Of a DNA stretch of 64,000 bases, positions 27,052-60,980 are shown piece by piece. A program made the translations under genes and the position numbers. Source of the DNA: Herpetosiphon geysericola (GTDB lineage: Bacteria > Chloroflexota > Chloroflexia > Chloroflexales > Herpetosiphonaceae); assembly GCF_001306135.1 (NCBI RefSeq), contig NZ_LGKP01000042.1:1-64000 (forward strand), written 5' to 3'. The notes beneath the pieces are model-generated. The model saw nothing but the letters and a program-made list of their open reading frames with translations. It did not search any database and was not told the origin of the DNA. How positions within the stretch are numbered: position 1 is the first letter of the stretch; each line of letters starts with the position of its first letter.

Positions 27052-27150
27052 TTAAAGAAAAGACGGGCTTGTCTTGTCATCTTGTTGAGAGATGAACTCA
27101 CAAGCTCGCCTTTCGACAGCTTTCTGAACGTATATCCTCGCTCCAGGAAT
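27052..27150 (-). promoter_or_regulatory. Pseudoknot-attenuator leader RNA, copy 1 of 5
   Basis: Transcribed leftward. Pseudoknot at 27126-27149: stem 1 TCCT/AGGA, stem 2 GAGCG/CGTTC. Then the invariant TCAGAAAGCTGTC, an antiterminator hairpin (AAGCT-GTC, GAAA loop, GGC-G-AGCTT) and a terminator (GGCGAGCTTGT pairing with ACAAGCCCGTC, one mismatch, then CTTTTCTTT). It ends about 17 bases before the start codon of the LysM-M23 gene. This copy is the most diverged and supplies the key compensatory changes. No clear promoter was found between it and the gene at 27170, so it may be reached by read-through. Confidence 0.75.
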
Positions 27151-27169
27151 TAAGTTGGGTTTCATGCGC

Positions 27170-27715
27170 TTAATGACGCGATGATGATGATTCTTCTTCA
27201 AACCACTCGGAAATACGCTCTCCCATATGGACAATATCCCGCGTCAATGCCGCTAGCATCGCCGAACGATGCGGTTCGCATTGGGGATCCATATCCCCTT
27301 CACGCACATACTCCGTGTAGTGAATACTCAGCGCCTGCGCTTCATCGGCAGAGAGACCCGATTCAATCGTAAATCCGAAGATCGTGTCATTGTGTATTGC
27401 CTTAAGCCGCCCTTCAAGCCGTACTATCCGTGCATAGATATCGACCATCGGCCATTCATGATCAAGTCGAAATGTGATATTCAAGGGCTTCAGTGTTCGA
27501 TATTTTCGAGGAAATATGGATTTAATCGTCTTGGCACGACCCTGATGATGCGTCTCCATGACCGCAACCGCACATTCCACCGTGCCGATGAAAAATTGGA
27601 GGCCTAGGGTCACCACGTCGGTTGAAGGATTGAGCATTTCCAAGGTCGTGCTTTTAAGGTTGGCGGCATCAAACGCATGCTGCAACGCATGGATAAATAC
27701 GCGAATGGGAGTCAT
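27170..27715 (-). CDS. Hypothetical protein with possible PilZ-like fold
   Basis: 181 residues; AGGA lies about 10 bases before the ATG. It is predicted soluble, with alternating strands in residues 20-110 (KTIKSIFPRKYRTLKPLNIT, then a strand-turn-strand) and a helical C-terminus. The arginine-rich turn followed by a beta-rich core loosely recalls PilZ-type c-di-GMP-binding proteins, but the RxxxR and D/NxSxxG motifs are not clear, so I do not assign it. It lies between the FG-GAP gene and leader copy 1, probably in one transcript with its neighbours. Confidence 0.6.
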   Translation of the reverse strand: MTPIRVFIHALQHAFDAANLKSTTLEMLNPSTDVVTLGLQFFIGTVECAVAVMETHHQGRAKTIKSIFPRKYRTLKPLNITFRLDHEWPMVDIYARIVRLEGRLKAIHNDTIFGFTIESGLSADEAQALSIHYTEYVREGDMDPQCEPHRSAMLAALTRDIVHMGERISEWFEEESSSSRH

Positions 27716-27776
27716 ATCCTGCCAGTCCTGTCACTATGCTCCACGGTTTGTGCAAAAGCCTAGACATTGGTATCAG

Positions 27777-29987
27777 CTACAGCGACTGAAGCGTCGCTGC
27801 TCGGCCAACGAGCAGTGGAAGGAAGACGATGCCTTCACTACTCGGCAGTGCCGATGCTGGCGGCACTGGTGGCGGGCTGCTCACCATAAATGTGATCGTC
27901 AGGGGTATACCAGCCGTTCCGGATGCATGCATTCCGGTATAGGCAATGATGGTAAGGGTATGGGGGCCAATAGTCGGCGTCCATGCGCTATAATCGTTCC
28001 CATTATTGCCAGCGAGGGCATAGGGGGCACCATTTTCAATCCGCGTGATTCTACCGTCGAGCACGAATTTGACACTGCCAACGGTCCCAGGATTCGTGAA
28101 TGCCTGCATATTCAATCGGTGGGTTGGCAAACTGCCAAAATTCAACGTCATACTGCTCCCAAGCGACTCAAAACCAGCGATTGGCAGATCGGTATCAGCA
28201 TTGATCAGGGTCAGTTTGGTGATGCTTGGGCCTGTACTGGACTGCGGGGTCGGTGTAACCTGAACCGGTGGTATCGTGGGCGATGGAGGCACGGTGGGTG
28301 GAATACTCGTCGCTGAAGGAGCTGCCGTAGGCGGAACATGCGTCATGGTGGCTGATGGCTGCACACCACAGGTCTGACTTGCCGATGACGCGACCGGTAC
28401 ACGATTCGCATGCCGCTGCGGGGCCAAGCGCGCGGTTATCCATGGCATCGAGCCAGGCTGTACCCGCCCGAGCGTGTTCCAGGCATACAGCGCCCCACCC
28501 TTTGAGTGGGCAATAAGCTCAACGGAACAATTTCCGTCGAGATCCGCGAGGGTTGGACCCGCAATAACGCCTTGTATTGCGGTCGTGCTGTTCCCCTCAT
28601 TAGGAAGCGCCAGCGGGAAGCCGCTGAGGAGCTGCCCCGATCGCGCGTTGAGTGCCGACATGCCAACAGCATTATTGGCTGAGCCATCATAGCTATAGGT
28701 GCCCAACACTATCTCAGGCACGCCATCCCCAGTGATGTCTCCAACCGCGACCTCACTCGCATAGAGCGCCCGTCCGTTGGCATAATTATAGGACCAGAGC
28801 TGGACACCATTCTCACGATATGCCCGAATCGTGCCATCGTCGAAGGTGACAACAATCTCTAGCACACCATCATGATCCAGATCAACAACAACGACCGGAT
28901 TGTTCGGCGTAAAATAGTTCGACCGTAGGGGCGATCCAACCGTCCGACCGATAGACCAGCCAGGCCGCCGCTGCCCATTCGGTTCAAGGATGATTAATGC
29001 GGTCGAGGTATTCTGATGCGCTTGGAGCGGGTCACGAACCTTCCCCGCGACGATGATTTCGGGGGTACCGTCGCTGTCGAGATCTGCGACGGTTGGAGCA
29101 GAGCGCGTGAACTCAATATATTTATCGCGGCCCCAGGTCTGAGCAGCGCCATCAAGATAGGTTCGCACGGGCCAGCCTGCCACCTGTTGACCAGTACCGG
29201 TATAGGCATTCATGTACATTTCATCACGACCGATGATAATTTCGGCCTTGCCATCACCCGTAAGATCCGCAGCGGCCAACTGGCCGAAGAATCCCGATCC
29301 CTTTGTGGCTGATAGTGGAAAACCCGGTACCGGCGAACCATCCACATTCCACGCATACAGGTTTGGTGCATAGTTCGTGTTGCTTCCAGCCTCGTTGGTC
29401 GTTGCGGCGAGGATCTCCAAGTTGCTGTTGCCAGCGATATCGACTATGGTAACACTCATCACTTCGGGGGTATTCCCATTCGTGATTCCGGCCCAGTCCA
29501 TCTCTTTTGGCCACCCTGGAAGCACCGTCCCATCACGCCGCCAAGCAAAAACTTTGCCACGCTGTCCAGCGCTCGATCCCGTGCCACGTGTCCCGGCGAC
29601 GACATCGAGCTTACCATCACGATCAATATCAGCAATCGCTAACGAGCCATTGATCCGTGGGGCATTATCACAAATGCCGCCGGTCTTCCAAGGAAAACCG
29701 GGGAGTAAGCCACCAGTAGGCGTAAAGCCCCACACGCAGCCTGTACTGTCAGCTGACACGATGTCAAGCACACCATCACCGGTGAGATCAATGACCGTTG
29801 GAGAGGAAAAAAATGAACCGTAGGGCTGGAGTGCGGGAAATCCAGGCCGCAGACTCAATGGTTGTGATGCGGCTGCAGCGTTCGATTGGACTGAAGAAAG
29901 AAGAAAACCAACCATACCAGCAACAATCAGGATAAAAAGGGATGGTATGAGACGGTGGACAGGATACGATTCTTCTGAAGTATTCAT
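27777..29987 (-). CDS. Exported FG-GAP/VCBS repeat protein
   Basis: 736 residues starting at MNTSEESYP, chosen because AAGGAT lies 8 bases upstream of this ATG. A signal peptide occupies about residues 10-40. Residues 45-550 contain repeated calcium-binding FG-GAP motifs such as DLTGDGVLDIVSAD, DIDRDGKLDVVAG and DLDSDGTPEIIVAG, which build a beta-propeller seen in integrins and surface adhesins. A Pro/Thr/Ser linker follows (about 555-605), then a beta-sandwich domain (about 610-710) and a weak hydrophobic tail. It probably acts on the outer side of the cell, in adhesion or as part of the pilus-like apparatus. Leader RNA copy 2 precedes it. Confidence 0.85.
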   Translation of the reverse strand: MNTSEESYPVHRLIPSLFILIVAGMVGFLLSSVQSNAAAASQPLSLRPGFPALQPYGSFFSSPTVIDLTGDGVLDIVSADSTGCVWGFTPTGGLLPGFPWKTGGICDNAPRINGSLAIADIDRDGKLDVVAGTRGTGSSAGQRGKVFAWRRDGTVLPGWPKEMDWAGITNGNTPEVMSVTIVDIAGNSNLEILAATTNEAGSNTNYAPNLYAWNVDGSPVPGFPLSATKGSGFFGQLAAADLTGDGKAEIIIGRDEMYMNAYTGTGQQVAGWPVRTYLDGAAQTWGRDKYIEFTRSAPTVADLDSDGTPEIIVAGKVRDPLQAHQNTSTALIILEPNGQRRPGWSIGRTVGSPLRSNYFTPNNPVVVVDLDHDGVLEIVVTFDDGTIRAYRENGVQLWSYNYANGRALYASEVAVGDITGDGVPEIVLGTYSYDGSANNAVGMSALNARSGQLLSGFPLALPNEGNSTTAIQGVIAGPTLADLDGNCSVELIAHSKGGALYAWNTLGRVQPGSMPWITARLAPQRHANRVPVASSASQTCGVQPSATMTHVPPTAAPSATSIPPTVPPSPTIPPVQVTPTPQSSTGPSITKLTLINADTDLPIAGFESLGSSMTLNFGSLPTHRLNMQAFTNPGTVGSVKFVLDGRITRIENGAPYALAGNNGNDYSAWTPTIGPHTLTIIAYTGMHASGTAGIPLTITFMVSSPPPVPPASALPSSEGIVFLPLLVGRAATLQSL

Positions 29988-30008
29988 GCAACACATCCTT
30001 ATCATCAT

Positions 30009-30108
30009 TAAAAACCAAACGGGCCTGCTGTTTTCTTCTCATTGCGAGAGAGGAAAAGAACAAGCCCGTCAAAGACAGCTTTCTGAGCGTTTCACCCCGC
30101 TCCGGGTT
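30009..30108 (-). promoter_or_regulatory. Pseudoknot-attenuator leader RNA, copy 2 of 5
   Basis: Pseudoknot at 30085-30107: stem 1 ACCC/GGGT, linker GAAA, stem 2 GAGCG/CGCTC. Then TCAGAAAGCTGTC, an antiterminator (AAGCT-GTC, TTT loop, GAC-G-GGCTT) and a terminator stem (ACGGGCTTG with CAGGCCCGT) followed by a T-rich run (TTGGTTTTTAA). It ends about 20 bases before the start of the FG-GAP gene. A well-spaced promoter lies upstream at 30151-30179. Confidence 0.8.
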
Positions 30109-30150
30109 CAGATTGTCATGGTCGCTTCAGATGCATCCTTGCATACATCG

Positions 30151-30179
30151 GTGATACGTTCTGTGATGGTCGCTGTCAA
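30151..30179 (-). promoter_or_regulatory. Promoter driving leader copy 2
   Basis: On the minus strand, TTGACA (30174-30179) and TATCAC (30151-30156) are separated by 17 bases. Transcription would begin near 30144, about 35 bases before the pseudoknot. This makes the FG-GAP gene an independently initiated unit with its own attenuator. Confidence 0.65.
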
Positions 30180-30305
30180 TGAAGAAAAAGAAGAAAGAGC
30201 AAACAAGAACGGGAGTTCATTGTGTCGATCATCACATCGATCATGTGCCTGCAAACGTGCGTCATCGCACTCCTAACGAATCCGGCGTGATTCATGGAAT
30301 AGTGT

Positions 30306-30470
30306 TCACCAATCGCAGGATGATTGGTTCACCGTTTCACGATGCGCCGGAAGTCTGTCATGCACCACAACGATGGGAACTAGAATGCTGGCCAGTGATG
30401 CCACACCACATGCCAATAATCGTTGCCGGCGTTGCGCGCTCTGGTCGAAAACCAAGACCCTCTGCCGCAT
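30306..30470 (-). CDS. Small membrane protein
   Basis: 54 residues (MRQRVLVFDQSAQRRQRLLA...), with a basic N-terminus and one hydrophobic helix (CGVASLASILVPIVVV, about residues 21-36). AAAGGG lies about 9 bases before the ATG, and the ORF begins 5 bases after the stop of the small membrane gene at 30475, the same tight packing as elsewhere in the locus. Family unknown. Its role is probably as a small inner-membrane component; this is inference from topology and position. Confidence 0.5.
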   Translation of the reverse strand: MRQRVLVFDQSAQRRQRLLACGVASLASILVPIVVVHDRLPAHRETVNQSSCDW

Positions 30471-30474
30471 TCCA

Positions 30475-30723
30475 TCATACCCTTTCGCCGATCAACCTGT
30501 TAAGGCGTTTGCTCAGCGGCCGTGTGGTGGAATTGCCTGGGACATAGCGGTGCGTTGGAGTCGGAACGTTCGTGACCTGCTGGAGCCGCAGCTCAACCTC
30601 GGTCGGTTGTACCATCTGCATTTGCAAGCATGGCTCTTGGCGTCGCCGGGCATGCCATAGCGCACCGGTGGCACAGAGCCACCCTAGGACTGCCAGAATA
30701 AAAAGCCCATGCATCAGTGTCAT
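30475..30723 (-). CDS. Small membrane protein
   Basis: 82 residues with GAGG 8 bases before the ATG. One N-terminal hydrophobic helix (LFILAVLGWLCATGALW, about 7-23) is followed by a basic, polar cytosolic tail. No family was recognised. It lies 85 bases downstream of the OB-fold-like protein gene and 4 bases before the next small ORF, so it is part of the long operon. Confidence 0.65.
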   Translation of the reverse strand: MTLMHGLFILAVLGWLCATGALWHARRRQEPCLQMQMVQPTEVELRLQQVTNVPTPTHRYVPGNSTTRPLSKRLNRLIGERV

Positions 30724-30808
30724 CGTTTATTCCTCGTTGCACATCCCGAATGCCAGATGGCGAACTATGCATGTGCTCGCCATCTGGTACAGCGATTAAT
30801 TGCGTCTG

Positions 30809-32074
30809 TTAGGCCAGCGTCTGACTCGGCTCGGCACGCGACTTCCGTTTGCGCCGCCGGAGTGGCCGCCGCCCCGCTAACCGCGCGGCGATCTGAGCAT
30901 CCCCGTCAAGCGGCTGCGCATCAGGGGCGGGAATGATATTCGTCACCACTAAATGCTCGCTGGGTCGCGATCGCAACCAATCCAGTTTCGTTGGATCAAC
31001 CTGATCTAAGAGCGCATGACCCTTGGGAAGATACGCCGTTGTGAGGACGTATTCCGCCTCAACTTGGGCATGATTACCAGGAACCAGCAGCATCGCTGCG
31101 CTATCCGTATCGATAGGGACAAACATCTTCACCCGTGTTTTGACTTCACGCGGAGCTGCACCTGGCTCAGGACGAGCAAATTTCTCGCACGTCACCATCG
31201 TTACCTGATGGTATTGTTGTGCTGTGCCAGAGGCGAACTTTGAGCCATTGAGTGGGCCATTGAGCCGTTGAACTTCTTCAACCACGCCATTTATGCGAAT
31301 CAGGGCCACATCCGCAGCTTGCTCATCAATGAGGCGGACTTCAAGCACTTTGACGTAGAGCCGTGTCACCATCTCGCCACCAAAGTTGCTTTCCCGCTCG
31401 TAGCGTGGGTCACGTACCTTCTCCAGCACCATGCGTCCAACAATGGACACAAGGCAACCCTCACGCGGTTCTTTGCCCTCACCCTGTGCCAGCATCTGAA
31501 CCTGCGTATGCGGCAACCCTTCGGGGATAAGTAAGGCAATCCGCTTCTTTGGGGCCAAGTCTGCAAAATCGTCGTCCATGCCCGGTTCAACAACCAGCAG
31601 GTTTCGCTGCTGGTAGCTGGCCCCCCCCGATGCAAGACCTTTAAGCCACATCGCTTTCCGTTTTGGCTGCTCGATACGCCCACGGAGCAGGACGCGATTG
31701 GTTGGCCATTCATCGCCCGTCCCCAACGTATGCGGGACCTGTGTGATAACAACGGGTTTGGAATCGACATCTTGGGTCGGTGCTGAATCACGTTGGCTTT
31801 CGACGGGGGCAGTCTCAGTCTCGTGCTGACTATCACGCCGATCCTTCTTATTGGTACGGCGAGGTCGGTCACGTTCATCCGTGTCGATGGGTTCCACGAT
31901 GTGGCTGGTGCTCTTCAGAACGACATCGGCACCTACCACTGCAGCATCCAGATCGCTGACACCATGCTGAATGAAACCCGTGTGGGGCGTGCTATCCAAG
32001 ATTGCAACAGCATCACCATCTTGGGAACCAACCCCAGTTGGCGTACTGTCGTACGACGCTTGTTCGACGTTCAT
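30809..32074 (-). CDS. OB-fold-like protein, possibly ssDNA-binding
   Basis: 421 residues, AAAGGAAC before the ATG. The first 110 residues are acidic and low in order. Two beta-barrel-like regions follow, at about 120-230 (NRVLLRGRIEQP, then GCLVSIVGRMVLEK) and 245-365 (VALIRINGVVEEVQRLNGP, then HQVTMVTCEKF), which have the strand rhythm of OB folds in single-strand DNA-binding proteins. The C-terminus is very basic (RRPLRRRKRKSR). A ssDNA-binding protein would fit next to a coupling ATPase and a replication-relaxation-type protein in a DNA-transfer locus, but the assignment rests on fold pattern. Confidence 0.5.
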   Translation of the reverse strand: MNVEQASYDSTPTGVGSQDGDAVAILDSTPHTGFIQHGVSDLDAAVVGADVVLKSTSHIVEPIDTDERDRPRRTNKKDRRDSQHETETAPVESQRDSAPTQDVDSKPVVITQVPHTLGTGDEWPTNRVLLRGRIEQPKRKAMWLKGLASGGASYQQRNLLVVEPGMDDDFADLAPKKRIALLIPEGLPHTQVQMLAQGEGKEPREGCLVSIVGRMVLEKVRDPRYERESNFGGEMVTRLYVKVLEVRLIDEQAADVALIRINGVVEEVQRLNGPLNGSKFASGTAQQYHQVTMVTCEKFARPEPGAAPREVKTRVKMFVPIDTDSAAMLLVPGNHAQVEAEYVLTTAYLPKGHALLDQVDPTKLDWLRSRPSEHLVVTNIIPAPDAQPLDGDAQIAARLAGRRPLRRRKRKSRAEPSQTLA

Positions 32075-32195
32075 GCTTAATGTTCCTTTCGCTGTGTCTC
32101 AATTGATGTCCGATTCCTACCGCTGGTCATCAATCGGTTAATGCCAGTAGTGTAGAGAAAAGCGACGATCATGCCTATGGTTTCCGTCGCACGTT

Positions 32196-32225
32196 TGTCG
32201 CATGGATGAAAAAAAGCATGCGACA
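32196..32225 (-). other. Stem-loop in the leader of the OB-fold gene
   Basis: TGTCGCATG (32196-32204) and CATGCGACA (32217-32225) form a 9-bp stem with a 12-base loop in the 212-bp gap between the genes at 32287 and 32074. No U-run follows on either strand. It may be a processing or protein-binding site. Confidence 0.4.
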
Positions 32226-32286
32226 CCACACGATACATTCTCAGTTTTCTACACGATCTATGTATGGATGGGTAGCAGGACAACGC

Positions 32287-33291
32287 TCAACTCCGCAGGC
32301 CGTAGATAGGGAGGTGAGACGGTACAACTTCCCACGGATCACCCCACAGTGATATCGTTGCTCCGACATCGTCTACCCAATACCCATCAACGATAGAATG
32401 TGGCAGACGTTTGAATGTTGCTGCATAGCAACATGCTCGTCCCTGTGGTGGCTGACTGTTCCACCAGCCACGGTTAAAGGCTTGATGAATGTTCGCTAGT
32501 CGCGTCTCACTCTTCACGACAAATGTTGGAATAGGAAATGTGCCAAGGAGATCCCGCCAAAGGCCAGTGGCATATGCCGTTCGATAATCGGCACCTTTCT
32601 CACGAATGACCGATAGCTCCTCGGTCGTCCGATCAATCTCTAATGCAAAGAGACGTTCCTCATGAAATCGATCATCAAGGGGGTAGGTATCGTCGGGAAT
32701 GAGCCAGGGCATCCATCGCGCTGAGCGCTTATTGGCAGGAAGTGCATGCAATGCTCCCTGCCGGGAATATCGAATAATGATCAACGCATCAATACGAATA
32801 TGACCGAGTGCAGTATATTCGGGCCAAACATCAATCCCAACAAAACGATCAAGCGCACGCAAATCACTAATTAATCGGGTAATGAATTCTGCTTGGTCTA
32901 ACATATGACTGTGAATAGCCCGCTGGGTTGACTCGAGTGCCCCTTCTTTCGTAATTAATCGATCACGATCACGGGGTGATGGTGGCTTGGGTATGCCGAC
33001 ATACTCACGAAGAAGCGTGCTTCCTTTTTGGGTTAAGGCATACAGAAACGCGCGATTAATGGGCTTTTGCCCAAACGGATCAGACAGTGGTTCCATCCAA
33101 AGATGACCTGACTTTCGCAACATCTTCAAATGATGGGCCAATCCCTCCCGGCTCAGATCTGGCGCTGCGATCCGTTGGATCTGATGCCGTCGCATTGGCC
33201 CAATAATGCCGAATGCCAGAAGGATTTGGAGCCTTCGGTCGAGCTGGATTCCTGGCACGATGTAGCCTTTGGGTATCGGTGGCATTCCCAT
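32287..33291 (-). CDS. Replication-relaxation family-like protein
   Basis: 334 residues; the ATG overlaps the stop codon of the coupling ATPase gene (TAATG), so translation is coupled. Residues 20-90 are a winged helix (MRRHQIQRIAA, then LAHHLKMLRKSGHLWMEPL). Residues 120-320 form an alpha/beta domain (WPEYTALGHIRIDALIIIRY, then FALEIDRTTEE), arranged as in the replication-relaxation family, which has a nuclease-like fold and is common on conjugative elements of Gram-positive and Chloroflexota bacteria. It could act as DNA-binding or processing factor for transfer. No classic relaxase HUH or tyrosine motif is seen. Confidence 0.65.
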   Translation of the reverse strand: MGMPPIPKGYIVPGIQLDRRLQILLAFGIIGPMRRHQIQRIAAPDLSREGLAHHLKMLRKSGHLWMEPLSDPFGQKPINRAFLYALTQKGSTLLREYVGIPKPPSPRDRDRLITKEGALESTQRAIHSHMLDQAEFITRLISDLRALDRFVGIDVWPEYTALGHIRIDALIIIRYSRQGALHALPANKRSARWMPWLIPDDTYPLDDRFHEERLFALEIDRTTEELSVIREKGADYRTAYATGLWRDLLGTFPIPTFVVKSETRLANIHQAFNRGWWNSQPPQGRACCYAATFKRLPHSIVDGYWVDDVGATISLWGDPWEVVPSHLPIYGLRS

Positions 33292-35765
33292 TACACACCG
33301 ACCTTTCCATCGAGCCGGTTAAAGGCTCCAGGCTTTTGCGGCGCTGGCATTGCAGGAATTGCCTCTTGACCCGTACCACGCATATAGCGTTGTCCTGCAC
33401 TACCCTGCGCCGATGATGGATTACTTGGTAGCCCATGGCCTTTTGCAGGTATCGAGCTTTTGGTCGTCTTCGGAAACGCTGCGAGGAGTCGCAGTTGCTC
33501 AGCCTGCACCTCAATCGCTGGACGTGCATAGCGCAGCCGACTGAGCCACAACACGCGCGTCCGTTTGTCGGGGATGAGGCCTGGCTGCGCCAAGATCGCT
33601 CGGCGCTGGCACGCTCGATGCTGGGTACAGCGCTGCAAATAGGCCTGCCAGTGCGCCTCTGGTGCGCGATATAACAACGCGAGGGCATCTTCTGGACTGA
33701 ATTCTGCCAACTCTGCAATCCATGCATCCATTTGCGCATCCTCTGGCGTCAATTGGTCTGCGGTCATTGTTTGCCACACGCCATCAACCGGCACAACGCG
33801 CTGATCAGGGAGTGGCCACAGTGGGAGTGGTTCAAATGAAAACAACTCAACGGTTTCACCGGTGCTCAGCGTTACATGGCCATAGCCTTCCTGTCGGGCT
33901 GGAATACTCTCATAGTCACTCTTGGTCAGGCCCGAACTCGGATATTGGCTCATCCAGACAGCGGCATCATCGCCGCGTGTGCCAACAATGAAGCGTGCGC
34001 CACAGTTGGCCATAATTGCCTTGAGCAAATCCGTCATGAACTGGCCGGTATGTTGATGGATGAAGAATCCCCCCACCATAAATGATCGGAGCCGTTCCAG
34101 CATATTCGTCAACGATGAGGGATCGCGTTGGCGGACCATGACTTGCACCTCATCGAGAAATGCGAGGATGAGCTCCCGTTCTGGTTCCTTGAGCTCTTGG
34201 CGACTAAACGCTGCGGCAACAATCTGATTCAAAAACAGTGTCGCGAGAAAAGCACCTTCTTTTTCTCCGATACGCTCGACCGGTAATTTGGCGAAGAGAA
34301 TGCCCCGCTGGTCAAGCATCGTACGAATGGGAATGCTTGTCCGCGGCTGATTCGTAATACGACGGACGGTCGAATTCATGAGGAATTGATCAATCCGTCG
34401 CTGGACGGCATCCATCGAGTTCTTTTGTTGCTCGGAGAGATCTGGATAGACATTCTCCCACCAATAGCGTGTCTGGTAATCGCGTATCTTCGCGAGAATA
34501 CGCGCTCGATATTCTTCAGACCGAAAGAATACGGATAGGTGGGCAAGAGTTGCATTTGGCTCGCCTTCAATCAGTGCTTTCGCTCCCCAGCCAATGAACT
34601 GCTGCATGCCGACGGACTTCTGCCAGTTTTCGTCCATGGCAGCAAAGGTCGATTCAACGAGGGAAATAAGTGTATCCGTATCAACGCCCGTCGGAAGCGA
34701 TTGGGCATCCAAGAGGTTCAATCCAACTGGCCACTCAGTATCTGTGGGGTCGAAAATAGCAACATCGCCTTCTCGTTCCAAAGGTACCATGAGGATAGCG
34801 TCATCAACCGTATCGCCCTTGAAATCTGAAAGAATAGCGCCAGCTCCAACCCGAAACACCTCACCTAACAACACCTTCGTCAAGTGCGATTTGCCAGAGC
34901 CAGAAGGAGCAATGATGTGGCCATGGGTGCTGAAGGCTCCTAATGGTACGCCGAGATAAATGGGTGTGCCGTCTGGACGACGACCGCGTGCCACGCGAAT
35001 CATCCGGTCTTTGATTGGGACTATCGCATCATAGAATGGCGGTGGTTCATCGATAGGACCAACAATGATGCGTGGATCGGGCGGGAGATACCGATTCCTC
35101 CGCCATCGCGCGATATGAACATCCCGTTGTGTTGGAAAATGCCAATGCAAGGTAATCTCAGAGGGAACCAGAATACTGGGATGCTGTTCGGGCCACAGTG
35201 GTGGGAGCGGAATGCTCCGGGCGGGAAGGAATGGAAGGTCACGTCTTGGTAAATGGGCTAAATGCCCTGCATCACGGCGGGCTATACCACCGCTACTTTG
35301 CTTCCAGGCTTGTGTGACATCGCCCCGTTCTTGGGTGTATTGTGCTACGATACTGGATACCTGTTTCAGTTGTCGCTCCGCAACCTCAGGATCAGTTGCA
35401 ATAACCACTGCCCGCAGAACGGCTCGAAATCCCTTTTCCGCAGCCTTGGCTTGGATTGCTGCGCCAACATCCTTGAGATGCGGTTGATCAGTGAGTTTTG
35501 CATCCTCGAGCATGATTGCTGCTCGCATCCGTGCCCACCACTGCCATCGTCCCTTGGTTGGAGACAAAATGATCTGCACACCAACATGCTGTACTCCCGT
35601 TAGTGGCGTTAGGCTCCCGAGTAGTGGCCCCATAAGATCGGTATTTGAATCAACGGTCGCCATTACCAATGGGTAGCTCGAATCGGCGGCAAGCTGCCAT
35701 TCACGCCATGCAACAATCGGAATATTGACCATATCGGTGGTATGTGATTGAGGATTGCCAGTCAT
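33291..35765 (-). CDS. VirD4/HerA-type coupling ATPase
   Basis: 824 residues from MTGNPQSHT, with GAAGGAG 5 bases upstream. The N-terminal 250 residues are a beta-rich region. The P-loop SGSGKSH is at about 286-293, LSDFKGD follows it, and Walker B LAFLDEVQVM is at about 531-541. Later, RFIVGTRGDD and the region around it match the C-terminal lobe of type IV secretion coupling proteins. It should pump DNA or protein substrates into the secretion channel. No strong membrane helix is present, but the gene just upstream (35776) encodes a two-helix membrane protein that could anchor it. A proline-rich unstructured tail forms the last 70 residues. Confidence 0.85.
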   Translation of the reverse strand: MTGNPQSHTTDMVNIPIVAWREWQLAADSSYPLVMATVDSNTDLMGPLLGSLTPLTGVQHVGVQIILSPTKGRWQWWARMRAAIMLEDAKLTDQPHLKDVGAAIQAKAAEKGFRAVLRAVVIATDPEVAERQLKQVSSIVAQYTQERGDVTQAWKQSSGGIARRDAGHLAHLPRRDLPFLPARSIPLPPLWPEQHPSILVPSEITLHWHFPTQRDVHIARWRRNRYLPPDPRIIVGPIDEPPPFYDAIVPIKDRMIRVARGRRPDGTPIYLGVPLGAFSTHGHIIAPSGSGKSHLTKVLLGEVFRVGAGAILSDFKGDTVDDAILMVPLEREGDVAIFDPTDTEWPVGLNLLDAQSLPTGVDTDTLISLVESTFAAMDENWQKSVGMQQFIGWGAKALIEGEPNATLAHLSVFFRSEEYRARILAKIRDYQTRYWWENVYPDLSEQQKNSMDAVQRRIDQFLMNSTVRRITNQPRTSIPIRTMLDQRGILFAKLPVERIGEKEGAFLATLFLNQIVAAAFSRQELKEPERELILAFLDEVQVMVRQRDPSSLTNMLERLRSFMVGGFFIHQHTGQFMTDLLKAIMANCGARFIVGTRGDDAAVWMSQYPSSGLTKSDYESIPARQEGYGHVTLSTGETVELFSFEPLPLWPLPDQRVVPVDGVWQTMTADQLTPEDAQMDAWIAELAEFSPEDALALLYRAPEAHWQAYLQRCTQHRACQRRAILAQPGLIPDKRTRVLWLSRLRYARPAIEVQAEQLRLLAAFPKTTKSSIPAKGHGLPSNPSSAQGSAGQRYMRGTGQEAIPAMPAPQKPGAFNRLDGKVGV

Positions 35766-35775
35766 ACAATCTCCT

Positions 35776-36387: not shown

Positions 36388-36390
36388 CCA

Positions 36391-39849: not shown

Positions 39850-39863
39850 AGATAGCTCCTTCG

Positions 39864-46084: not shown

Positions 46085-46167
46085 GGGTTCTCCTTTATGG
46101 CGTGATAGCCACTATGCACAGAGCACTCAGATTTGGATACGTTACATGGGTATGCCGCCTTCATAAT

Positions 46168-46263
46168 CAACAAAAACGGGCTTGCACACTCTGCTCACGA
46201 TGAGCGGAGAACACAAGCCCGTCCAAAGACAGCTTTCTGAGCGCTTGACCCCGCTCCGGGTTT
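46168..46263 (-). promoter_or_regulatory. Pseudoknot-attenuator leader RNA, copy 3 of 5
   Basis: Pseudoknot at 46239-46261: stem 1 ACCC/GGGT, linker CAAG, stem 2 GAGCG/CGCTC. Then TCAGAAAGCTGTC, an antiterminator (AAGCT-GTC, TTTG loop, GAC-G-GGCTT), and a terminator whose GACGGGCTTG pairs with CAAGCCCGTT before a T-run. These 96 bases are identical to copy 5 (60885-60980). The gene at 44150-46084 starts about 85 bases after the terminator. Confidence 0.8.
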
Positions 46264-46350
46264 CGATTACTGACTATGGTTAGCATAGCAGATTGAATAT
46301 CGAGCGTAACCCAAATAGCATCAAAGATCCGATGAACATCCGATGGATTT
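46264..46350 (-). promoter_or_regulatory. Promoter region of leader copy 3, duplicated at copy 5
   Basis: Contains on the minus strand TGCTATGCT (extended -10; hexamer at 46282-46287) and, upstream, two tandem 11-bp repeats CATCGGATGTT and CATCGGATCTT (46324-46345) that would sit on one face of the helix. The same elements recur at 60981-61068. The -35 is weak (GTTACG), as is common for an extended -10 or an activator-dependent promoter. The repeats are candidates for a regulator binding site. Confidence 0.5.
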
Positions 46351-52029: not shown

Positions 52030-52039
52030 AGTTCCTCTC

Positions 52040-53239: not shown

Positions 53240-53254
53240 ATTCGATCCTTCAAA

Positions 53255-53346
53255 CAAAATAGGCTTGAACTCTCCTCTCTTAGTGAGCGGAGAACACAAG
53301 CCCGTCAACTGACAGCTTTCTGAGCGCTTGACCCTGCTCCGGGTTT
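53255..53346 (-). promoter_or_regulatory. Pseudoknot-attenuator leader RNA, copy 4 of 5
   Basis: Pseudoknot at 53322-53344: stem 1 ACCC/GGGT, linker CAAG, stem 2 GAGC/GCTC (the outermost pair is lost, A opposite C). Then TCAGAAAGCTGTC, an antiterminator (AAGCT-GTC, AGTT loop, GAC-G-GGCTT), and a terminator in which GGGCTTG pairs with CAAGCCT before ATTTTG. It ends about 16 bases before the start of the NlpC/P60 gene. It follows the small gene at 53369 without a clear promoter, so it may act on read-through from the tad genes. A dyad GGGATCTG/CAGATCCC lies at about 53354-53381. Confidence 0.75.
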
Positions 53347-53368
53347 CGGTTATCGGGATCTGTCACGT

Positions 53369-53590
53369 TTATGGCAGATCCCTCGTCTCCTCTATACCAC
53401 AGAAGTTCATCAGACGATCGATAATCTGGTAGGCTGCTTGGCGATCTGGAGAAGATGCTGCTGGCAACAACGTTGCTGGCGGAATAGTAGGCGCATCGGC
53501 AATCAGGGCCGATGGAGCAGCAGGCAGAAATGCTTGAATTGTGGCGGTCGGGGCCACAGAGGTTTGGGCAAAGAGATTTGTAAGACTCAT
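53369..53590 (-). CDS. Small protein after tadC
   Basis: 73 residues, beginning at an ATG that directly follows the stop of the TadC-like gene (TAGATG), so translation is probably coupled; there is no good ribosome-binding site. Rich in Pro, Ala and Thr in the first 45 residues, then a helix (AAYQIIDRLMNFCG). It has no signal peptide or membrane helix. It may be a chaperone or a short tether. Family unknown. Confidence 0.5.
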   Translation of the reverse strand: MSLTNLFAQTSVAPTATIQAFLPAAPSALIADAPTIPPATLLPAASSPDRQAAYQIIDRLMNFCGIEETRDLP

Positions 53591-54415: not shown

Positions 54416-54424
54416 GATATGCTC

Positions 54425-55351
54425 CTAGAAATCAACATTCGGCACTTGGCTCAACTTAATCGCTGCACCAATCGGGGCGATATACACGAGGCAAAAAAAC
54501 AAGATAGCTGGTAACGCAAATGGGCCACTGAATGCCGCATCCCAACGCTCAGTCATCGTGAAGCGCAAGAATGTGGCAATCCCAAGCCCAACACCAACTA
54601 CCGCGAATGAAGATACGCGGGCATGGGCAAGTTTCGATCGCACACCCTTCTCACGGAGGCGGGTCTCTTGGAGTGCGATGCTCGCAGCTAACATTCGGTC
54701 ACGGGCCGATGCCTGCGGTAGATCCTCTGAACCCTCAATATGTTCCAGAAAGCGAATCAGATCCTTGCAGGTAGTCTGCCCTCCAACAGTCATCGCTGTC
54801 GAACCAAGGGTTGTAAAACGTCTCTCACCGGTTTCAGGATCATAAACTGCTGTTCCAGCTGTATTTGTCATCCATTGCCATGGTGTCGCAAGTGGCTCGT
54901 GGATACCTTCACCAACTTGTTTGATCGCATTGAGCAGTGTTACTCCACTATTCATTAACGAACCCACTTGGGTGGCTGCATCGACGACTTGCTCGGACAT
55001 CCGTCGTGTTTGCCGGAATTCCATTACATTCAGAATGATCCACGCTATCCCAATCGTGATGGGGATGGCCAGTACACTAGACCAAACCGACCCAGCTATT
55101 TGCGCTATTATCAGACTCGATAAGCTACCACTAACAAGAGCAGCCATGATGAGCTGGAACCCCGAGAGCGTGGGAAGTGGTACGATCATACTCTCCAGAC
55201 CAGACACCCGCCCATAGAACTTGCGCACCCGATGAATACGAGCAGTTTCAATAAGGTGGGTCAGGGGTGCATGAAACACCCCTGCCACGAGCAGCATCAA
55301 TCCATTGATCAACCAAACCGGGACCATGCTGGCAAATACTGTTGTCAACAT
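54425..55351 (-). CDS. tadB: TadB-like inner-membrane protein
   Basis: 308 residues; the ATG overlaps the stop of the CpaF-type ATPase gene. Four hydrophobic segments lie at about 5-25, 65-110, 250-270 and 280-300, with a cytosolic T2SSF-like helical domain between them (MSEQVVDAATQVGSLMNSG, then LIRFLEHIEGSEDLP). This pairs with the TadC-like protein encoded next. Position between cpaF and tadC is the standard tad order. The sequence is divergent from the classic proteobacterial proteins. Confidence 0.78.
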   Translation of the reverse strand: MLTTVFASMVPVWLINGLMLLVAGVFHAPLTHLIETARIHRVRKFYGRVSGLESMIVPLPTLSGFQLIMAALVSGSLSSLIIAQIAGSVWSSVLAIPITIGIAWIILNVMEFRQTRRMSEQVVDAATQVGSLMNSGVTLLNAIKQVGEGIHEPLATPWQWMTNTAGTAVYDPETGERRFTTLGSTAMTVGGQTTCKDLIRFLEHIEGSEDLPQASARDRMLAASIALQETRLREKGVRSKLAHARVSSFAVVGVGLGIATFLRFTMTERWDAAFSGPFALPAILFFCLVYIAPIGAAIKLSQVPNVDF

Positions 55352-57456
55352 TCGCTTTCATCCTCCAGGGCAGCACGTTCAGCTGCCGCATATTGTGCTC
55401 GCACGGCATCGACCGCTGCAGCATCGGTTTGTCCTAGCGCGAGCAGCGCCTCCATCAACTTCAGATGTCCTCCCAGACGTGTACGCATGCGCGGCGCATC
55501 CAGAAGGTCAATTGGCAGCTGCAGCAGCTCAGTGAGGGTTTCTCGAGCTGCACCAAAGGAGATCCGTGCATCGATCCGTTGGATCATCATATCGAGTGAC
55601 CGACATTGGGCCATGCCGACATCGATGGTCCGTCTGACGGCATCCCAGCTCTGATCAGCAGGGGGATAGGCAACTAGCGCAGGATCACGGAGAACCTCGT
55701 TGAGTCTCATATGTGCATCTTCCCAACACCGTTTTTTGACCTCCTTCATTATCGCCCGATAGAGGGCAATGGCTTGCTTGTGATATTGACTGGCTGGACG
55801 GGCAAGATGCACCAGCGCATCACGCACGAGCGGTAAAATGCGCGCCTGATCGCGCTTGATGCCCCATGCAACCTGCGCCTCAGCTAGTGCTTGGGTTGCC
55901 TGTCCATTATCCAAGGCGGCGAAGCCGCGGCGCACGGCATCTTCCATTCGTGTGTGTGATGTTTGTCCCGTGTGACCAGCGCTCCAAGCACGTGCCAGAC
56001 CATTCTTGATGCGGATTGCTAGGTGCTCCGGCAGCGTGGCCCCATCGTGAAAGACAAGCGTATGGCCGTCAGCATCGAGTCTAGCATGATGCTTCCAGTT
56101 AATCTGATGCGAGTCGCGGTCTACCTCGACGTCAACGAGAGGAATCATCGTCGCCTCTAAGCCACCCGTGGCATCCCGATGCACGCCAGAGGCTAACTGG
56201 ATCTGGGTTACCAGCCGTCGGCCCAATTCGCCAAAGTATTCCACCCGGACTACTAGGCTAAATGACCCGATGGCGTCGCGCAAAGCATCATCAAAGCGGT
56301 TCTCGTAGGCTACAGCACCAGCCGTGGCCGCACAACTGGCAAAGCGGCGTAGGGTTGATCGAGGATCGGGCGCGTGAATGGTGGTGATCGTCATGTGGTC
56401 CGTCATTCCCATCTGGAGAATAGCCCCAGCTTCCTTGGATCGGGTTTCGCCAAATCCAATGGCATCAGGCGTTTGGCGAAGGGCATTGATGGCGGCGTTC
56501 ACCAAGGCGCTACTGTCTTTGACGGCATCCACCGTCATAGGAGTCCACAGTTTTTTGTCCAGCAATTTAATTTCCTGTGCGCCATCTTCGATAGTGACTA
56601 TGTGGCCTTCGATCTCTTGCAGCAGTGTCTCAAGAAAGGCGGTTTTACCCGAACCAGTTGATCCAGATACCAGAATACACATTCGGGCACGCAAGAAATA
56701 GCGAATGAGATCAGCAGTATCCTCATCCAACGACCCCTTCTCGATCAGTGTCTGAAGCGTCCATGGCACGGTTCGTCCACGGCGAAAGATGAGCAGAGGC
56801 TTATTCGTCAGTGGTGCAACAGTGATGCTGGCACGCGTGCCACCAGGGAGGGAGAGACTGCGTTGGCATTCCTGGCTATTCAGGGGTTCGCCAGCATCCT
56901 CTGCCAACAGTCGGGCGCGACGCTCCAACTGCGCCATTGAAAGTGGATTCGGAACAATGGCTGGGGCCTCACCTGCCGTGTAGATCTGCACCTTGTCACC
57001 AACAAATTTCACTTCGGTAGTATCGGGGAGATCTAGATATTGCTGAATGCTACCCCACCCAATCGTGTCGTTGTACAGCCGGAGCAGGGTGCCCTCATCA
57101 GTCGAGGGAACATCAGCGAGCGCCACCCGCGTACCCTGCGCTCCGGGATTGGACTCACGCAGGCGTAGTGCGCTGCGGATGGCATTGGTCAGTACTTGTA
57201 CTACCTCGCGCCGACGCTCGCTGATGTCCTGGAGCAGTGGATCACGGAGGCGGGGATTAAACAGGTCTTTATCCCGCAAAACATCCTCAGCAGCCGTCAA
57301 AATCTTGGCCCATGTATCTGGGGACACGTGGACGGGCTGCTCTTCACGGTTCTGCTGCGTGTGTGTGACCGGAGGAGCAGCTCGACGGCTCCCAAAGTAG
57401 GTGAGTTCATCAATAGCTTCGTTGTCGCCATAGGAGCGTGCGTGTGGTTGCGTCAT
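55345..57456 (-). CDS. cpaF: CpaF/VirB11-type secretion ATPase with long C-terminal extension
   Basis: 703 residues, GGAGG before the ATG, which overlaps the CpaE-type gene by 4 bases. The core (about 70-430) has Walker A GSTGSGKT (about 262-270), the Asp box region IVTIEDGAQEI and Walker B-like PDAIGFGETRSKEA with HAPDPRS as the histidine box. It powers assembly of Tad pili. The last 230 residues are helical, resembling TPR-like repeats (AIALYRAIMKEVKKRC), unusual for CpaF, which is normally near 450 residues. A second ATPase of the same family is encoded at 58758. Confidence 0.85.
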   Translation of the reverse strand: MTQPHARSYGDNEAIDELTYFGSRRAAPPVTHTQQNREEQPVHVSPDTWAKILTAAEDVLRDKDLFNPRLRDPLLQDISERRREVVQVLTNAIRSALRLRESNPGAQGTRVALADVPSTDEGTLLRLYNDTIGWGSIQQYLDLPDTTEVKFVGDKVQIYTAGEAPAIVPNPLSMAQLERRARLLAEDAGEPLNSQECQRSLSLPGGTRASITVAPLTNKPLLIFRRGRTVPWTLQTLIEKGSLDEDTADLIRYFLRARMCILVSGSTGSGKTAFLETLLQEIEGHIVTIEDGAQEIKLLDKKLWTPMTVDAVKDSSALVNAAINALRQTPDAIGFGETRSKEAGAILQMGMTDHMTITTIHAPDPRSTLRRFASCAATAGAVAYENRFDDALRDAIGSFSLVVRVEYFGELGRRLVTQIQLASGVHRDATGGLEATMIPLVDVEVDRDSHQINWKHHARLDADGHTLVFHDGATLPEHLAIRIKNGLARAWSAGHTGQTSHTRMEDAVRRGFAALDNGQATQALAEAQVAWGIKRDQARILPLVRDALVHLARPASQYHKQAIALYRAIMKEVKKRCWEDAHMRLNEVLRDPALVAYPPADQSWDAVRRTIDVGMAQCRSLDMMIQRIDARISFGAARETLTELLQLPIDLLDAPRMRTRLGGHLKLMEALLALGQTDAAAVDAVRAQYAAAERAALEDESEC

Positions 57457-58754
57457 CCTGCAACCTCCGGCTCGGGAACCATCACTCCGTCAGCGACGAT
57501 GGTAGCAGGCACCAGCTTATTGCGGTTGAATACTGACCGCTGCCACCAGGAGCGTTTCGGAGCAGTACGAGGCAGGTCGATGTCTACGGCCTTGGCCAGT
57601 TCGTCGCTATAGGCCCAGACTGCCTGTGCCAGTTTGCTGTTCGGCGCAACCGCCAATGGAGACCAGTACTGGCCTGTCTCAACCTGACGTTTTGCGGCTT
57701 GCGAGATCGCTCGGGCATCTCGGGGAATCATTGACAGTTGATGAACCTGGGGGAACTGCTGCGTTGCCATCTTCTGGATCAGGGGCATCTGATCACCCCA
57801 TACAGACCCTTTTTCAGGTTCTACATAGAGTAGGGAACATCGGTCAAGGGGGAGCTGGTATTCCCGAACCATATCCATGAGGTTCCGCGCCCCCTCTCGT
57901 TCCAGAATGCCTAGTGGACAGGGAATAACAACTGAGCCGCCAAACTCTAGGATCTTCAACGGGTAGGGCCGGCGGGCCAACTCGGGTGAGCAGTCATAGA
58001 TCACCACATCATAGCCAAGCTGAATCGCGATCTGGTACAAGGCATCCCACTGGTGGGGTTTCAGATCGTGCAGGTTGGCGGCTGTAGATGGACCCAGAAG
58101 AAAGTCAATGCTCACCTGTTCGCCGTTGATCACAATCTGCTTTGAACGGATAAAGCTCCTCACTGACTCGGTCGTCCAGCCACGTGTATCGTCGCGGGAG
58201 GCGAGATCCGTGAAGGGAAGAGCCTCCCGCCCAAAATTAAACTGCCTCCGCAGGGAGGCATTGCTCAAATCGTTTTCGATCATGAGGATCTTGCCCCCAC
58301 GATAGGCAAAGGCCTCGGCGGTCAAACAAGCCATGGTGGTTTTCGATGCGCCACCCTTGCCGCTGCCAAAACCCAGTACCTTGGTGGTAGATGTCATTGT
58401 CGCGACTAGGCCGAGGTTTTCCGCAACCCAGCTGATGAGGGCATTATCATCCAACGCTGGCGAGATAAGCGCACCACGATCTTGGAGGGCCTGCATATCG
58501 CGTTGCGCTGGCCCAGTGATCATTACCAGCACTCGTTTTCGGGCGGTGAGTCCCAGATCAACTAGGCGTAGCAGTTCAGCCGGTGAACCCACGCGATCAT
58601 CGAGCACAACCGCATCAAGCAAGCGATCATTAGTTTCGAGCAGCGAGATGGGAGTATCATACGCTTCGCTGCTATATTGGGTCACACTCTGATACCGAGA
58701 TGCGATGAGGGTCCCAATCGACCCTGCTTCGCGCATTGCGAATGAGATTTTCAT
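57453..58754 (-). CDS. cpaE: CpaE/TadZ-type MinD-like ATPase
   Basis: 433 residues, GAAGGAG before the ATG. The first 115 residues resemble a receiver-like fold without a clear phosphorylation site. Residues about 125-400 are a MinD/ParA-type ATPase with deviant Walker A GSGKGGASKTT (about 128-140), MIENDL and VVIYDCSPE. CpaE/TadZ localises the pilus machine, often to a pole. The gene follows the short ATPase gene by 3 bases and overlaps the long ATPase gene, in the classic cpaE-cpaF order. Confidence 0.82.
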   Translation of the reverse strand: MKISFAMREAGSIGTLIASRYQSVTQYSSEAYDTPISLLETNDRLLDAVVLDDRVGSPAELLRLVDLGLTARKRVLVMITGPAQRDMQALQDRGALISPALDDNALISWVAENLGLVATMTSTTKVLGFGSGKGGASKTTMACLTAEAFAYRGGKILMIENDLSNASLRRQFNFGREALPFTDLASRDDTRGWTTESVRSFIRSKQIVINGEQVSIDFLLGPSTAANLHDLKPHQWDALYQIAIQLGYDVVIYDCSPELARRPYPLKILEFGGSVVIPCPLGILEREGARNLMDMVREYQLPLDRCSLLYVEPEKGSVWGDQMPLIQKMATQQFPQVHQLSMIPRDARAISQAAKRQVETGQYWSPLAVAPNSKLAQAVWAYSDELAKAVDIDLPRTAPKRSWWQRSVFNRNKLVPATIVADGVMVPEPEVAG

Positions 58755-58757
58755 CGA

Positions 58758-59915
58758 CTATCGCTCCTTCGCCCATTCGCTACGAATGGGTTCGATCATG
58801 GTTAACCGGCCGTTCCGGAACTCGCGGACAATGGCACATTCGTAGGGGTCGCCAGGCGTGGACGAGCTGCCACGCCGTAATTCGACAACTTGGGTTACCC
58901 GCCGCTGCTTCGTCGTATCGGAGTCCATATGCACAACAATGACATCAAGCGCGGACAGGTTGGCTCGTACGATTGCTGGTGTAGTATGCCGGGCCGCAGC
59001 TGCGTAGCTCTCCATCCGTAAAAACACTTCAATGCCGTTTGTGGCATGGAGGGTTGTCAGAATAGGATGGCCGGTTGAGGCGGCTTGAATCATGGCCCAG
59101 AGTTCAGCACCACGACCTTCGCCGAGAATCACGCGTTCGATATTCAGTCGGAGCGCCAAGCGAACGGCCTCCAGGAAGGCGAACTCATCGCCATCCTCTA
59201 ACACGAACCCGACATCGTTGAACGGATCGCCGGTAGGCAGCTCTGGGATGTCCTGAACTACCACACACCGCATTTCACCCATCTCACGCTTGAGCGCAGC
59301 GGCCAGTGTGGTCTTGCCTGACCCGGTTCCGCCAGAAATGATGATATTGACGTGCTTGGTGAGAATTGCTCGACGGAGGATCTCCGCAACATCCTTTGGA
59401 AGCACGTGCGCAGCGACAAGATCATCGAGACTAGCGAACTCATCGGGCAGAATGCGCAGGGTAAGGCTGGGTCCGTCAGGCGTGAGGCCTTCCCGTGTCG
59501 CTGTATAGCGTAGCCGCCGTAGGCCGGTGCCGCCACGGGCAACACCAAGTCGTTTTTCATGGGACAAATTGCCCCACGTTGTCGGATCCTCTTTTGGTCC
59601 CATGCGGTTGACGAGTAGTTTGTTCTGGAGCCAAATGATCCAATCCCGGTGGAGTGCAAGGGGGAGAATAGATCGAATCCCCGATCGATCGACAACGATA
59701 TCGCGACCTGGACCGTTCAGGCAAATATCGTGGACGAGCGAATCCCGAACCACATTATCAATCGGCCCCCACCAGGGGATGTGCTTCCATTCCTCGGCAG
59801 TCGGAATATCTTTCATCCCTGCCTTGAGCAAAGCTTCTCGAACAGGGATGCCCCAATCAATCGCCTCATTCGCGACGAGCGCGCCTAATGTAGCGAGGAG
59901 CGCGGTATGTTTCAC
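58758..59915 (-). CDS. Second CpaF/VirB11-type ATPase
   Basis: 385 residues from a GTG with AAGGAG 9 bases upstream. It has Walker A SGGTGSGKTT (about 195-203), an Asp box (CVVVQDIPELPT), Walker B (RVILGEGRGAELW) and a histidine box (TTLHATNG). This is the compact CpaF/VirB11 form, without the long C-terminal extension of the paralogue at 55345. Two such ATPases in one locus are unusual. One may drive the pilus and the other may act as VirB11 for the type IV secretion part. It lies 32 bases downstream of the CpaB-like gene. Confidence 0.82.
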   Translation of the reverse strand: MKHTALLATLGALVANEAIDWGIPVREALLKAGMKDIPTAEEWKHIPWWGPIDNVVRDSLVHDICLNGPGRDIVVDRSGIRSILPLALHRDWIIWLQNKLLVNRMGPKEDPTTWGNLSHEKRLGVARGGTGLRRLRYTATREGLTPDGPSLTLRILPDEFASLDDLVAAHVLPKDVAEILRRAILTKHVNIIISGGTGSGKTTLAAALKREMGEMRCVVVQDIPELPTGDPFNDVGFVLEDGDEFAFLEAVRLALRLNIERVILGEGRGAELWAMIQAASTGHPILTTLHATNGIEVFLRMESYAAAARHTTPAIVRANLSALDVIVVHMDSDTTKQRRVTQVVELRRGSSSTPGDPYECAIVREFRNGRLTMIEPIRSEWAKER

Positions 59916-59947
59916 GAGATCGTTCTCCTTATCGCCGCAACAGCGAT

Positions 59948-60856
59948 TTACTTCGTCTTGCCAGTGGTATCCAACGTGTCGGGCGCGCCGGGAAGCGTGG
60001 TGCGAACGCCAGGCAACAGCTTGTTTGTCTCGCTGTAGGCACCGCTCAGACCGAAGGCATTGAGATCCTGGGGTTCCATGCGGCCAATGACCGGAGCCAT
60101 CTCCGAATCACCGCTGTAGCGTTGTCCGAACAGGCTGACACCAGGGATTGCGCTGACCGTCCACAATGCTTGACTCTGATAGAGCGTGCCAGCTAGGAAG
60201 GCAGCGCCTTTGGTTCCGTCCACGTACAGGACTTCCAGCTTGGTCATCAACATGCAGGTATAGGGGATAGGTTCGCCATTAGCGCTGACATTTGATGCAC
60301 TGGCAGGAAGCACAGATGCGCCCTCAGGAATGCTACCCTCAGTCAGCACTTCAGTGACATCACCATTCGTCGGTGTACCGCCGACTTCGCGGCATCGATC
60401 TTGGTCACCGGTGGGATCAGTAAAACCAATGTTCAGATAATCGCGATCGGTCAGCGGACCAACGGTAGTGGTAGAGAATGGTAATGGCACCATCCCCTGT
60501 GGTAGTGCCTTGCCATTTGGGTACATTGGCCGTGTAGGTGGTACCATGGATACCTGAGCCATTGTTGCCAGTTCATCCTTGCCAACATTCCGCGTTGACC
60601 AGGTGCCCACGAGGATTTCAGGATTACTCACGCCGTCCAGCTGTGGAACCCGGTTAATCGGAACCGCAATTGTTCCAAGATCTTCTAGGGTAATCTGGAC
60701 TCCGGCGGGCACATCCCGCGACCAAATAGCAACTAACTCCGTGCGCTGATTCATTACGTTGGTGTAGATCCCGAATGCAACAGCCAGAATCCCGAGGATC
60801 GTCAAGAGGATTGGGAGTGGCGAACGGCGGATGGCTTTTTGTGGTGTAAACGACAT
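59948..60856 (-). CDS. cpaB: CpaB-like SAF-domain pilus assembly protein
   Basis: 302 residues starting at MSFTPQKAIRR, because AAGGAG lies 6 bases before this ATG while the upstream frame runs through the leader RNA. One N-terminal membrane helix (LPILLTILGILAVAFGIYTN) precedes a SAF domain (about 45-110: LVAIWSRDVPAGVQITLEDL, then VGTWSTRNVGKDE), as in CpaB/RcpC. A C-terminal beta region (about 120-270) follows. CpaB supports the pilus channel outside the inner membrane. It is the first gene of the cpaB-cpaF-cpaE-cpaF-tadB-tadC unit and is controlled by leader copy 5. Confidence 0.8.
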   Translation of the reverse strand: MSFTPQKAIRRSPLPILLTILGILAVAFGIYTNVMNQRTELVAIWSRDVPAGVQITLEDLGTIAVPINRVPQLDGVSNPEILVGTWSTRNVGKDELATMAQVSMVPPTRPMYPNGKALPQGMVPLPFSTTTVGPLTDRDYLNIGFTDPTGDQDRCREVGGTPTNGDVTEVLTEGSIPEGASVLPASASNVSANGEPIPYTCMLMTKLEVLYVDGTKGAAFLAGTLYQSQALWTVSAIPGVSLFGQRYSGDSEMAPVIGRMEPQDLNAFGLSGAYSETNKLLPGVRTTLPGAPDTLDTTGKTK

Positions 60857-60884
60857 GAACAACTCCTTGATACCCATTTCAAAC

Positions 60885-60980
60885 CAACAAAAACGGGCTT
60901 GCACACTCTGCTCACGATGAGCGGAGAACACAAGCCCGTCCAAAGACAGCTTTCTGAGCGCTTGACCCCGCTCCGGGTTT
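60885..60980 (-). promoter_or_regulatory. Pseudoknot-attenuator leader RNA, copy 5 of 5
   Basis: Pseudoknot at 60956-60978 (ACCC/GGGT, linker CAAG, GAGCG/CGCTC), the invariant TCAGAAAGCTGTC, an antiterminator, then a terminator (GACGGGCTTG with CAAGCCCGTT, T-run). Identical over 96 bases to copy 3. It ends about 29 bases before the cpaB start codon. Its likely promoter lies directly upstream (60981-61068). Confidence 0.8.

Follow-up and report, generated by a model that had tools for sequence, protein, structure and literature searches.

Can a plasmid place its pilus and DNA-transfer genes under a regulatory RNA of its own? The question is raised by a 42-kb Tad/type IV secretion system (T4SS) region on a plasmid of Herpetosiphon geysericola, in which a small RNA element is found repeatedly upstream of genes. 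The stretch analyzed, hereafter the window, is 64,000 nt long (GCF_001306135.1, contig NZ_LGKP01000042.1, positions 1-64,000, forward strand). The element is approximately 50 nt long and is composed of an H-type pseudoknot, an AGA linker, and a hairpin termed P3, which overlaps an intrinsic terminator. On the strength of sequence comparison and predicted folds, it is probably a cis-acting terminator/antiterminator RNA gate, of which long Tad/T4SS operons have copies both at their start and within.

An initial annotation had placed five copies of the element on the minus strand at 27052-27150, 30009-30108, 46168-46263, 53255-53346, and 60885-60980, and all five were found there; its total fell short, as the plasmid has seven copies, two of them beyond the window. 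A covariance model built from copies 1-5 (R1) was searched against the whole 6.14-Mb genome and recovered these five with E-values of 6e-14 to 9e-17, the same five having built the model, whereas the two extra copies (C8:66978-67027 and C8:66592-66632, copies 6 and 7; E = 2.5e-14 and 5e-7) are independent finds. C8 denotes the contig bearing the window; copies 1-5 are given in window coordinates, and copies 6 and 7 in those of C8. All seven lie on the C8 minus strand, with none in the other ~6 Mb of the host genome outside the locus, and the recurrence is far beyond chance. C8 starts with 8,381 bases (window 1-8381) that recur exactly at its end (C8:139324-147704; 0 mismatches), for which the simplest explanation is that the contig is circular, with a length of 139,323 bp, and hence a plasmid.

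Rather than being dispersed repeats, the copies are tied to gene starts, as had been proposed: all seven precede a start codon in the same sense as the gene, and each has a terminator. The distance from terminator end to start codon is 18-34 nt, except in copy 3: there, the ATG is ~90 nt away, and a start-stop ATGTAA (window 46144-46149, minus strand) intervenes. Across the entire element and terminator, copies 3 and 5 do not differ, and their promoters are almost the same, which points to one recent duplication, while copies 6 and 7 have their 5' half in common, the pseudoknot being nearly letter for letter the same. The parts of the five window copies are as follows:

27126..27148, minus strand: copy 1 H-type pseudoknot (TCCT/AGGA and GAGCG/CGTTC), 19 nt past the stop codon of a 181-aa gene
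27102..27122, minus strand: copy 1 P3 hairpin, antiterminator candidate
27060..27112, minus strand: copy 1 intrinsic terminator sharing the P3 3' strand, followed by an M23/LysM gene (ATG 27035)
30085..30107, minus strand: copy 2 pseudoknot
30062..30081, minus strand: copy 2 P3 hairpin
30015..30073, minus strand: copy 2 terminator, followed by an FG-GAP repeat gene (ATG 29987)
46239..46261, minus strand: copy 3 pseudoknot
46215..46235, minus strand: copy 3 P3 hairpin
46174..46224, minus strand: copy 3 terminator, followed by the first gene of the VirB4/VirD4 operon (ATG 46084)
53322..53344, minus strand: copy 4 pseudoknot, stem 2 of only 4 bp
53298..53318, minus strand: copy 4 P3 hairpin
53258..53306, minus strand: copy 4 terminator, followed by an NlpC/P60 gene (ATG 53239)
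60956..60978, minus strand: copy 5 pseudoknot
60932..60952, minus strand: copy 5 P3 hairpin
60891..60941, minus strand: copy 5 terminator, followed by a CpaB/SAF-like gene (ATG 60856) of the Tad operon

The pseudoknot is predicted to consist of stem 1 (4 bp), a 1-nt loop, stem 2 (5 bp), and a 4-nt A-rich loop, with the 5' strand of stem 2 directly abutting stem 1, and P3 of 8 bp with one bulge and a loop of 3-4 nt. The details given by the initial annotation hold at each point. Four of the five window copies have ACCC/GGGT as stem 1, and copy 1 has TCCT/AGGA instead. In stem 2, GAGCG pairs with CGCTC, except that copy 1 contains a G-U pair and that the last pair of copy 4 does not form. The two loops measure 1 nt (loop 1) and 4 nt (after stem 1). 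The block TCAGAAAGCTGTC is the same in copies 1-5, and P3 (AAGCU-GUC/GRC-G-RGCUU) is found in each window copy. The covariation check that it had called for, made with pair counts, shuffles, and slid controls on a small set of sequences, revealed compensatory change in stem 1, stem 2, and P3. The pairing analysis covers eight distinct sequences of shared ancestry from two genera, the P3 of copy 7 having been aligned with the covariance model. In this set, 96.2% of cells are paired compared with 25-51% after sliding the partners, and five pairs have changes on both sides, spread over all three helices: A-U/C-G/U-A and C-G/U-A in stem 1, G-C/A-U in stem 2, and A-U/G-C and C-G/U-A in P3. None of 500 shuffles reached the observed pairing and double-change counts.

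In every copy, P3 and the intrinsic terminator have one strand in common, the 3' strand of the former and the 5' arm of the latter, so that the two hairpins are mutually exclusive, just as the initial annotation had read them. Its proposal of a transcription-attenuator layout is likewise supported, since two alternative folds are predicted for every intact copy, and in copy 7, where the sequence of P3 and the terminator has been replaced, both the overlap and the complementarity are retained. When the 5' side of P3 was shuffled, an equally good hairpin arose in only 2-16 of 500 trials; among ten ordinary plasmid terminators used as a control, most have no comparable partner, and two also fall in the low tail. 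An intrinsic terminator before a start codon, together with a mutually exclusive 5' hairpin, is present in the seven plasmid copies and both relatives. For the plasmid copies, P3 has a predicted energy of -5 to -8 kcal/mol, compared with -23 to -31 kcal/mol for the terminators.

The element is further associated with a distinct promoter. A 21-nt direct repeat, CCATCGGATGTnCATCGGATC, has exactly three sites in the genome, each of them within this locus. Three more are found in G008, a genome of the same family but another genus and the sole other one to carry the RNA; among the 158 class genomes, no other has the repeat with fewer than two mismatches. An extended -10 (TGnTAnnnT) lies exactly 38 nt after the repeat at all six sites, and no other spacing is common to two sites. 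The motif precedes copies 3 and 5 as well as the intact copy of G008 (contig C82). Its parts upstream of the two window copies, with one further site, are as follows:

46326..46346, minus strand: operator-like direct repeat CCATCGGATGTTCATCGGATC, 5' of copy 3
46282..46287, minus strand: extended -10 TGC-TATGCT, 38 nt past the repeat (copy 3)
61044..61064, minus strand: operator-like direct repeat CCATCGGATGTTCATCGGATC, 5' of copy 5
61000..61005, minus strand: extended -10 TGC-TATGCT, 38 nt past the repeat (copy 5)
L046:7904-7924: CCATCGGATGTnCATCGGATC and TGnTAnnnT site

The repeat, the 38-nt spacing, and the extended -10 appear to define a plasmid-specific promoter class, common to G008 and probably activator-dependent. 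Three such predicted promoters would delimit three operons in the locus. Copies 5 and 3 would stand just after the start of two of them; barring further promoters, copies 6 and 7 would lie in the first operon, copy 4 in the second, and copies 2 and 1 in the third. Copies 1, 6, and 7 start 16-19 nt past the upstream stop codon; in the predicted layout, at least three of the seven are therefore not 5' leaders but lie between cistrons. The gaps upstream of copies 2 and 4 are longer, and these two may be served by promoters of their own. The promoters without the element, at C8:67924, at its counterpart on G008 contig C18, and on G008 contig C142, each lead straight into a gene. The C142 site (L119:2945-2965) adjoins a KfrA-like gene (assigned by eye) and a serine recombinase.

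The distribution of the RNA is narrow. Besides its intact copy, under the same promoter, G008 has a decayed copy on C18, at the position of copy 6 and beside a gene 81% identical to the gene upstream of copy 6. Searches with R1 in 200 relatives and 158 class genomes and with R2 in a 400-genome sample of the phylum gave nothing else credible; the R2 matches outside the family (G182, G228, and G417; 22-33 bits) were rejected, as they fall in an acyltransferase-like frame (PGAGFIAQKAGCPV, assigned by eye), and the stretches shown contain no terminator. A pattern scan of 84,980 species genomes returned 20 matches in unrelated phyla, all of them below 17 bits in the covariance model, as expected of chance matches, and the same kind of scan of IMG/VR returned no match. 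When plasmids were searched by BLAST with the copy-5 region, the sole result was a weak 36-nt match in Bradyrhizobium, which was rejected. Other Herpetosiphon have related, divergent T4SS loci, with VirB4 35-37% identical, and these also lack the element; one of them is that of the H. aurantiacus DSM 785 plasmid CP000876. That the class could not be recognized at first sight agrees with the Rfam comparison, in which no family matched the window at gathering scores, none matched the element there at E-values up to 10, and none matched the five short element loci with laxer filters. Literature searches yielded no description of this RNA, and those made on transfer-gene control in Chloroflexota plasmids, a subject that seems to have received little attention, yielded no relevant paper. 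Judged from these comparisons, the element is real and represents an unclassified RNA family, one whose kind, putatively that of the transcription attenuator, is known; it stands out in being repeated inside one transfer locus and in being coupled to a private class of promoter.

With seven copies on one plasmid and none elsewhere in the host, the plasmid appears to use its own RNA switch for pilus and DNA-transfer genes. In the mechanism proposed, the pseudoknot and P3 would fold first as the RNA leaves the polymerase, and P3 would sequester the 5' arm of the terminator. If P3 were held, probably by stacking on a factor-stabilized pseudoknot, the polymerase would read into the gene 18-90 nt downstream; if it were not, the far more stable terminator would form, and transcription would stop. 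With two operons beginning with a gate and each of the three having internal ones, one signal could open every gate, while stray transcripts would be stopped. We infer that P3 represents the readthrough state and that the gate is regulated.

Some observations weigh against the proposed gate. P3 is far weaker than the terminator, so readthrough requires some stabilizer, for which the pseudoknot is the natural candidate. The independent sequences behind the pairing analysis are few, and their alignment is fitted to the covariance model. Finally, only a 35-codon frame follows the intact copy of G008.

As for the input, a plasmid-specific factor is the candidate that we favor, by a modest degree of confidence; a small molecule is less likely, and unassisted folding kinetics would be a rather improbable answer. 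Confinement of the RNA and the promoter motif to one plasmid lineage would favor a plasmid-encoded factor over a general metabolite. The BglG/LicT RAT and ANTAR-regulated leaders offer a likeness, as they have a hairpin that overlaps a terminator arm and is stabilized by a dedicated protein. To our knowledge, neither their sequence nor their layout matches the present element. ANTAR leaders have tandem hexaloop hairpins and a regulator at the locus, whereas P3 loops are 3-4 nt long and no ANTAR protein is encoded on the plasmid, the two in the genome being on contigs C1 and C9.

The leading alternative, although an unlikely one, is a classical metabolite or second-messenger riboswitch, in which a small molecule bound to the pseudoknot alone would set the choice between P3 and terminator for each transcript. 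A small conserved fold, an alternative hairpin, a terminator, and a start codon make up the layout of a transcriptional riboswitch, and a pseudoknot of 23 nt is in principle large enough for ligand binding, preQ1-I being of similar size. The preQ1-I, fluoride, and SAM-II riboswitches also combine a compact pseudoknot with a terminator/antiterminator choice near the start codon; however, the present element has no sequence or covariance-model match to them, is restricted to one plasmid lineage, and has several intercistronic copies. Most known classes span one pathway and many lineages, whereas this element occurs neither elsewhere in the genome nor in the other genomes of Chloroflexota that were searched, has no Rfam match, and has three copies between cistrons. 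The intercistronic copies and the one-lineage distribution would fit plasmid-specific attenuation or antitermination at least as well as metabolite sensing.

Processive antitermination, in which the pseudoknot RNA would ride the polymerase past this and later terminators and P3 would be no switch, has a smaller chance still. Its setting is appropriate: the locus has long operons with internal terminators, a situation in which conjugation operons are known to use processive antitermination (PMC8955417), and the RNA here lies close to promoters and just 5' of terminators. Examples of RNA-based antitermination are the put RNA of phage HK022 and EAR of Bacillus exopolysaccharide operons (PMC8955417), likewise structured cis RNAs 5' of intrinsic terminators in long operons, but they are processive and act at a distance, whereas the present element overlaps its own terminator and has no Rfam match. 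One copy directly before each terminator would be needless for a processive signal, and the complementarity between P3 and the terminator arm has been retained in copy 7 despite its sequence change. Nor is there a NusG paralogue on the plasmid; the single NusG gene of the genome lies on another contig, unlike RfaH and LoaP, specialized NusG paralogues often encoded at the locus. The nearest functional parallel to the proposed gate is perhaps conAn of the pLS20-type conjugation operons, in which the polymerase passes more than 20 internal terminators (PMC8955417). Both cases concern conjugation-type operons with many internal intrinsic terminators and readthrough via a plasmid-encoded RNA, but here each terminator has one RNA copy and an overlapping antiterminator hairpin, and copies stand inside operons as well as at their start. 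No sequence relation to conAn was seen in the Rfam comparison, no search having been aimed at a ConAn1 homologue, and the RNA itself appears unrelated.

It is very doubtful that the copies are ordinary constitutive terminators between operons, spread by local duplication, with the conserved 5' part as baggage. The recent duplication of copies 3 and 5, the shared 5' half of copies 6 and 7, and the position of all copies between genes would suit it. Baggage, however, would not retain its pairing via compensatory changes in three helices and two genera, and copies 3 and 5 lie between their own promoter and its gene, where a plain terminator would silence that gene. Nearly all the strong coding-strand terminators of the locus belong to the element, and the other plasmid terminators are simple hairpins without it. 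Least probable of all is a family of trans-acting small RNAs, each a promoter, an RNA of ~100 nt, and a terminator: such ~100-nt units exist at copies 3, 5, and C82, the last with its 35-codon frame, but all seven plasmid copies are in sense just before a start codon, and the 16-19 nt upstream of copies 1, 6, and 7 leave little room. Leader-peptide attenuation was rejected, as copies 3 and 5 have no start codon between the predicted transcription start and P3.

The genes of the locus comprise, on the Tad side, a CpaB/SAF-like gene (weak match), two TadA-type ATPases, a TadZ-like ATPase, and TadE, with two further genes in TadB and TadC positions assigned from gene order alone; the conjugation-type genes are VirB4, VirD4-like, and Replic_Relax. 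The 181-aa protein (window 27170-27715, minus strand), between copies 2 and 1, would be co-transcribed with surface genes according to the layout; its assignment as PilZ, a guess, was dropped for want of a Pfam match. The first part of the gene at window 56-961 recurs at C8:111484-112470 (exact 40-mers); it is probably a transposase, with a transposon copy on the same plasmid.

A cis-acting RNA gate repeated in this way could, tentatively, represent a new antitermination class for plasmid transfer in Chloroflexota, in which a private promoter and a private pseudoknot would be under plasmid-encoded control, with one gate per terminator, all opened together and no single processive complex. If a transfer locus does repeat an RNA switch, mobile elements would have a further means, beyond those known, of keeping costly secretion machinery silent. 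The seven gates, with their natural variants, would provide a compact system for the choice between termination and readthrough made by a tiny pseudoknot, and they suggest that RNA regulators carried by narrow plasmid lineages escape family databases.
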